From Cristatella mucedo (taxonomy: Eukaryota; Bryozoa; Phylactolaemata; Cristatellidae), in NCBI GenBank assembly GCA_009760855.2, contig WPIO01000179.1, positions 97,001 to 161,000 of the forward strand: DNA of 64,000 nt. The letters run 5' to 3'. The position numbers and the translations under genes are program-made. How positions within the stretch are numbered: position 1 is the stretch's first letter; every line of letters starts with the position of its first letter. Below are positions 23,259-53,757 of this stretch, in pieces. Below the pieces are notes generated by a model, which was not told where the DNA came from, ran no database searches, and saw only the letters and a list, made by a program, of their open reading frames with translations.

Positions 23259-23344
23259 CTACCACAGCCCTGTCGATCGGCCGCCAGGCGGATTCGAAAC
23301 CTTCTGATGAGTTCGCCTCTGATTGGAGTCATCTATCTGGTCAC
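23259..23344 (-). CDS. CRMP/DHP exon 13 (C-terminus, stop)
   Basis: Residues 559-586: [16 protein letters not shown], then [12 protein letters not shown] and TAG. This parallels the vertebrate CRMP end (QIDD...RR...APPGGR...). Acceptor TTTTAAAG with phase-1 join. Without exons 12-13 the protein would look like a plain dihydropyrimidinase, so these exons decide the CRMP assignment. Confidence 0.9.

Positions 23345-53757: not shown

Follow-up and report, generated by a model that had tools for sequence, protein, structure and literature searches.

A ligand-complete dihydropyrimidinase-type gene with a CRMP-type tail and its ligand-depleted sister copy in the bryozoan Cristatella mucedo

The idea that a dihydropyrimidinase (DHP) was ancestral to the CRMPs is not new, and related dual cases are already known from Drosophila and C. 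elegans. As described in PMC7954323 and PMC3650022, the Drosophila CRMP gene encodes a dihydropyrimidinase, and mutually exclusive exons switch its zinc-binding residue 192 from His to Gly. Several DHP/CRMP genes are described for C. elegans, namely DHP-1, DHP-2 and UNC-33 (PMC7396159), and the C. elegans DHPs were proposed as common ancestors in the title of Takemoto et al. 2000, a reference in PMC7396159. In the CRMPs themselves, the C-terminal region is described in reviews as the site of microtubule and actin binding (PMC8131560), and the Cdk5/GSK3 sites described for CRMP2 are given as conserved in human CRMP1 and CRMP4 (PMC7325199). Among the literature matches listed, none had a title dealing with a CRMP tail on an invertebrate DHP.

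The window, i.e., the whole analysed stretch of 64,000 nucleotides, corresponded to positions 97001–161000 of a contig (C87) of the 572-Mb C. mucedo assembly, which consists of 688 contigs. It contained a gene with a complete dihydropyrimidinase metal site and a CRMP-type tail, and a second gene, tail-bearing and largely devoid of ligands, was located on contig C332. The presence of multiple DHP/CRMP genes in one invertebrate resembles C. elegans, to which it is likened by description. The arrangement differs from the fly, likewise known by description, in that the fly uses alternative exons, whereas here the ligand-depleted form is a separate gene. What is added to the known cases is probably a CRMP-type pseudoenzyme of independent origin beside a tail-bearing enzyme.

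Gene model of the window locus

A 586-residue gene of 13 exons with six metal ligands and a CRMP tail had been proposed in the preliminary description, and its reconstruction from DNA reproduced this model, with the six ligands exactly in place. The gene lies on the minus strand, with its ATG at 53757 and its stop codon ending at 23259, and has a coding sequence of 1761 nt and a frame open across every join, the joins being predicted from genomic sequence alone. Eleven of the 12 introns are of the GT-AG type and one, after exon 7, is GC-AG. The start codon lies in exon 1 (53707–53757), and MTARDSFPVKRVPLHLQ was found at the matching position of the C332 copy. Exon 2 (51565–51659) was placed by the gene rebuild together with a search with four peptides, and exons 4 (34376–34540), 9 (25542–25625) and 10 (25226–25405) by the gene rebuild. 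Exon 3 (46529–46713), aligned to DPYS and the CRMPs, encodes His79 and His81 (DTHTH), exon 5 (33271–33413) Lys171 and His204, exon 6 (31171–31360) His260 and exon 8 (28704–28845) Asp338 (TGTDHC). The GC-type donor of exon 7 (29832–29988) is situated at 29832 (AG/GCATGT) and is replaced by GT in the C332 copy. The core ends in exon 11 (24943–25029), exon 12 (23484–23679) encodes the proximal tail and exon 13 (23259–23344) the distal CRMP-type tail (GDQIDD...) with the stop codon. A possible polyadenylation signal, AATAAA, is present on the same minus strand at 22932–22937, 321 nt beyond the stop.

Read-through past the exon 12 donor meets a stop after 14 codons and the joins of the window gene are known from DNA alone, as would suit an enzyme ending earlier, with exons 12 and 13 used in another isoform only. 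Such a separation of the tail exons from the enzyme transcript is very improbable, as it is opposed by the consensus-type splice sites at exons 12 and 13 and by the C332 copy, which has the same exon order, phases and tail.

Eleven peptides from exons 3–13 gave no second match in the window at E < 0.001, and querying the assembly with the window protein returned no additional C87 match beyond the 13. Fly-style mutually exclusive exons were rejected for exons 3–13, no second exon copy being found in the window. Scans of the window with Rfam (gathering threshold) and for tRNAs gave no matches. By eye, fragments resembling the reverse transcriptase end of CR1/L2-type LINEs were noticed (e.g., 26773–27357 and 19365–20448), as were (ATT)n, (AC)n and (GA)n microsatellites within the introns and flanks.

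Metal site and C-terminal tail

The best PDB match of the window protein was the dihydropyrimidinase 2vr2 (770 bits, residues 17–516). The two vertebrate DHP structures used, 2vr2 and 4h00, are taken here to be human dihydropyrimidinase (DPYS) and a fish DHP, respectively. Over the core (residues 21–489), 327 of 469 residues (69.7%) were identical to 2vr2 and 310 of 469 (66.1%) to 4h00, and the identity to CRMP2 was below that to DPYS (289/469, 61.6%).

All six ligands, His79, His81, Lys171, His204, His260 and Asp338, are present in the window protein, and the same residues were found in both vertebrate DHPs and in 18 of 18 bacterial DHPs, sampled as every fourth of 80 loci, up to 18. The CRMP structures compared, 4b3z, 7u5k and 4b90, are those of vertebrate CRMP1, CRMP2 and CRMP5 (DPYSL). 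At the six positions, which read H, H, K, H, H, D in the window protein, CRMP1 has N, Y, Q, H, K, G, CRMP2 has H, R, L, H, K, A and CRMP5 has S, H, Q, H, N, D, so that five, four and three ligands, respectively, are lost relative to the window protein. For CRMP1 (1KCX), His73 is listed in a passage of PMC2999344, whereas the human CRMP1 sequence compared here has Asn.

The NCBIfam dihydropyrimidinase model TIGR02033 scored the window protein at 613 bits against a cut-off of 393. CRMP1 (629 bits) and CRMP5 (547 bits) passed it too, and the model was dropped as a proof of enzyme identity; since it does not discriminate, the enzyme case is carried by the ligands. A total of 57 columns split the two vertebrate DHPs from CRMP1/2, and 28 of them could be polarised with the bacterial sequences. 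The window protein had the bacterial state in 20 of the polarised columns, shared a derived state with the vertebrate DHPs in three and with the CRMPs in three, and had another residue in two. A tetramer of the DHP type would be expected, with Lys171 bridging the metal centre, and the protein is predicted to open dihydropyrimidine rings.

The tail alone (residues 494–586) gave eight PDB matches at E ≤ 10, every one of them a CRMP, with CRMP5 as the best (E = 1.2e-9) and CRMP1 as the next (E = 7.5e-8). A distal block of 35 residues was identical to CRMP1 at 21 positions, to CRMP2 at 20 and to CRMP5 at 18, and 20,000 shuffles of the block reached a maximum of 10 identities. The window tail fits the CRMP pattern FxLSGxQIDD...PPGGR, and CRMP5 likewise ends GGRSSGIW. 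The vertebrate DHP chains 2vr2 (541 residues) and 4h00 (520 residues), which resemble the window protein in the core and in all six ligands, differ from it here, as their alignments stop at window residues 516 and 513, respectively, and give no tail match, although these are crystallised chains and possibly shortened constructs. Natural human DPYS is presumably 519 residues long and ends without a tail. When the distal tail (48 residues) was compared with viral contigs, no relative was found among the 31 pattern matches.

No Ser/Thr-Pro site occurs in window residues 490–586, so sites of the Cdk5/GSK3 kind are missing from the window tail, in contrast to the tails of vertebrate CRMP1/2/5, which have Ser/Thr-Pro sites. 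The CRMP2-type phosphorylation cluster (Thr509–Ser522 of CRMP2) is not matched by it. The "cytoskeletal-signalling tail" of the preliminary description is borne out in its conserved distal motif and falls short in the lack of Ser/Thr-Pro sites. The predicted role of the tail is to contact other proteins, perhaps those of the cytoskeleton or, in mixed tetramers, the C332 subunits.

A second gene copy in the assembly

The search of the assembly with the window protein revealed 28 matches, 13 on C87, 13 on C332 and two weak ones elsewhere, and the search with CRMP1 revealed 21 (10 on C87, nine on C332 and two elsewhere). The second DHP/CRMP locus sought in this way was thereby found on C332. Neither query detected a third DHP/CRMP locus among the best-scoring candidates, the only ones that the search scores, and a diverged third copy could escape it or be missing from a possibly incomplete assembly. 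A genome search with Pfam PF01979 met exon 3 of the window gene and three further places, which by eye were AMDHD2-like (L081), imidazolonepropionase-like (L082) and like the dihydroorotase domain of CAD (L084). Among these three places, only L084 was met by the window protein and CRMP1 queries, and weakly so (E = 0.15 and 0.5). The mollusc haemocyanin domain PF14830 had no match, but neither did its controls, so that this result carries no weight.

The C332 gene occupies positions 11781499–11765998 on the minus strand and encodes 587 residues in an open frame over 13 exons, with exon phases matching those of the window gene at all 13. The two proteins are identical at 387 of 584 aligned residues. 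At the ligand positions, the C332 protein reads S, R, Q, H, N, D, with four of the six ligands lost and two kept, and it has no residue aligning to Tyr176, which is taken to be the active-site tyrosine. Five of its ligand positions (S79, Q171, H204, N260 and D338) read as in CRMP5, three of them being replacements, and the protein carries its own tail, ending ...PPGGRSVGLW. By these features the C332 gene is predicted to encode a CRMP-type pseudoenzyme.

The C332 copy evolves faster than the window copy. With DPYS as the outgroup, 77 private changes were counted in C332 and 19 in the window protein (p = 3e-9), and the counts were 63 and 22 with a bacterial outgroup and 57 and 29 with CRMP2 as the outgroup.

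The preliminary description had read the window gene as bifunctional from a single gene, and it had named a separate CRMP gene accounting for the tail as a refutation. The intact-looking metal site and the CRMP tail do reside in one gene, which agrees with the first part of this reading, and no mutually exclusive exon of the kind by which the fly alters the function was found; a window protein that both hydrolyses dihydropyrimidines and does the job of a CRMP, with C332 extra or differently used, would fit these observations. The same assembly, however, holds a dedicated CRMP-type copy, tailed, ligand-depleted and open over its 13 exons, and because of this copy single-gene bifunctionality is left unsupported and is regarded as rather doubtful, a division of labour between the two genes being simpler. 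A separate gene of the kind named was thus found, but it does not account for the window tail, because the tails of the two genes are encoded by separate exons.

Phylogeny and history of the pair

The main tree comprised seven animal and 18 bacterial proteins, with C. mucedo as the sole invertebrate, and both of its proteins as well as the CRMPs were truncated ahead of the tail. The window and C332 proteins were sisters (100/98), and vertebrate DPYS and the CRMPs formed the other group (93/87). Approximately unbiased (AU) testing rejected the union of C332 with CRMP1/2/5 (p = 0.00088) or with CRMP5 (p = 3.6e-5), and over the whole core with C332 included it also rejected the union of the window protein with the vertebrate DHPs (p = 0.0014). 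When the six ligand columns were removed in a quick tree, the pair persisted (SH-aLRT 97.8) and C332 with the CRMPs was again rejected (p = 0.00086, and p = 0.0032 without CRMP5). For exons 8–11, the unions of C332 with the CRMPs, with CRMP5 and with CRMP1/2 were all rejected (p ≤ 0.0014), whereas exons 3–7 alone gave no rejection (p = 0.15, 0.14 and 0.16, respectively) and still recovered the window–C332 pair (85.7). All four column/row subsets united the two copies.

In the tree without C332, the window protein was placed outside the vertebrate DPYS and CRMP group (83/83); its union with the vertebrate DHPs was not rejected (p = 0.23) and that with the CRMPs was borderline (p = 0.052). The ancestral-like position suggested in the preliminary description agrees with this placement and with that of the pair outside the vertebrate group in the main tree, a small one with seven animal rows. 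As a separate observation, human CRMP5 lay on a long branch in the main tree and joined the vertebrate dihydropyrimidinases over CRMP1/2 (95/92); a single CRMP group was not rejected in the tree without C332 (p = 0.41).

The age of the duplication was approached through fourfold-degenerate sites, which agree between the two copies at 57 of 198 positions, and by exon at 4/7, 5/8 and 12/27 (exons 1, 2 and 3) and at 36/156 in exons 4–13. NG86 gave a dN of 0.26 and no dS value. With so few fourfold sites in agreement, the duplication is ancient, and a recent conversion is unlikely. Since exons 8–11 reject C332 with the CRMPs and exons 3–7 do not, an old conversion event in the 3′ half would be compatible with the data.

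Such a conversion is a component of another explanation, by which the DHP/CRMP duplication was bilaterian-wide, the window gene is the DPYS orthologue and C332 the CRMP orthologue, the sister look arose via old gene conversion and the tail was lost only in vertebrate DPYS. The three ligand replacements common to C332 and CRMP5, the p value of 0.15 for exons 3–7 and the ancient split seen in the fourfold sites speak for it. It is nevertheless unlikely, given that the whole core rejects both of the unions that it implies, that every column/row set unites the window gene with C332, and that the low fourfold identity in most exons opposes recent conversion there.

Because the copies are sisters and C332 with the vertebrate CRMPs is rejected, the duplication and the ligand loss here were probably independent of the vertebrate ones, as far as the sequences compared indicate. 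On the evidence as a whole, the window gene is likely to represent the enzyme member of a DHP/CRMP pair that was duplicated in a spiralian, separately from the vertebrate duplication, and that descended from a tail-bearing, ligand-complete ancestor. In this likely course of events, the duplication would be separate, judging by the small tree, from that which made vertebrate DPYS and the CRMPs; vertebrate DPYS would have lost the tail later; the CRMPs and the C332 copy would have lost the metal site separately; and the C332 copy would have taken a non-enzymatic role.

The active site is ancestral, since the six ligands occur in the compared bacteria and in the window gene. Both C. mucedo copies and CRMP1, 2 and 5 carry the tail, which the two vertebrate DHP chains, possibly shortened constructs, did not show; the simplest history, reasoned from few rows and not computed, is one gain of the tail in an animal ancestor and one loss in the vertebrate DHP, the ligands being lost in C332 separately from the CRMPs. 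Because the C332 sister keeps the tail with most of its metal site gone, the tail probably preceded the loss of enzyme activity.

A more general scenario is put forward with moderate confidence, in which an active dihydropyrimidinase with a tail gave rise to CRMP-type pseudoenzymes in parallel, in the vertebrates at least once and also once in the lineage of this spiralian, with some replacements in common (His79 to Ser, Lys171 to Gln and His260 to Asn, as in CRMP5). From such parallel origins it would follow that the tail and a non-enzymatic role predate the loss of catalysis, and an active tailed form would persist beside its ligand-depleted sister, perhaps in mixed tetramers. For the path from an enzyme to a neuronal cytoskeleton family, the order of events (tail first, loss of catalysis later, perhaps repeatedly) thereby becomes testable, and the tailed enzyme and its tailed, ligand-depleted sister are a natural pair for studying the role of the tail on an active versus an inactive core.

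Elsewhere in the window, a 362-aa open frame at 9997–11082 on the minus strand matched the deubiquitinase VCPIP1 over 317 residues (E = 6e-97). In the assembly, this 317-residue fragment had one match, itself, and because this neighbour is single the DHP pair is not traced to a large-scale duplication. Four homeodomains were noticed in the genome (L121–L124), of which two are Hox4-like and two are followed by NIAKLTGP; contig C665 has one of each kind, near 11.75 and 12.04 Mb, and so does contig C221, near 3.11 and 3.22 Mb. The NIAKLTGP motif after the homeodomain is taken to be the mark of spiralian Lox5, by which the latter two are Lox5-like. These two homeodomain sets, apparently two Hox clusters, are a hint of large-scale duplication.
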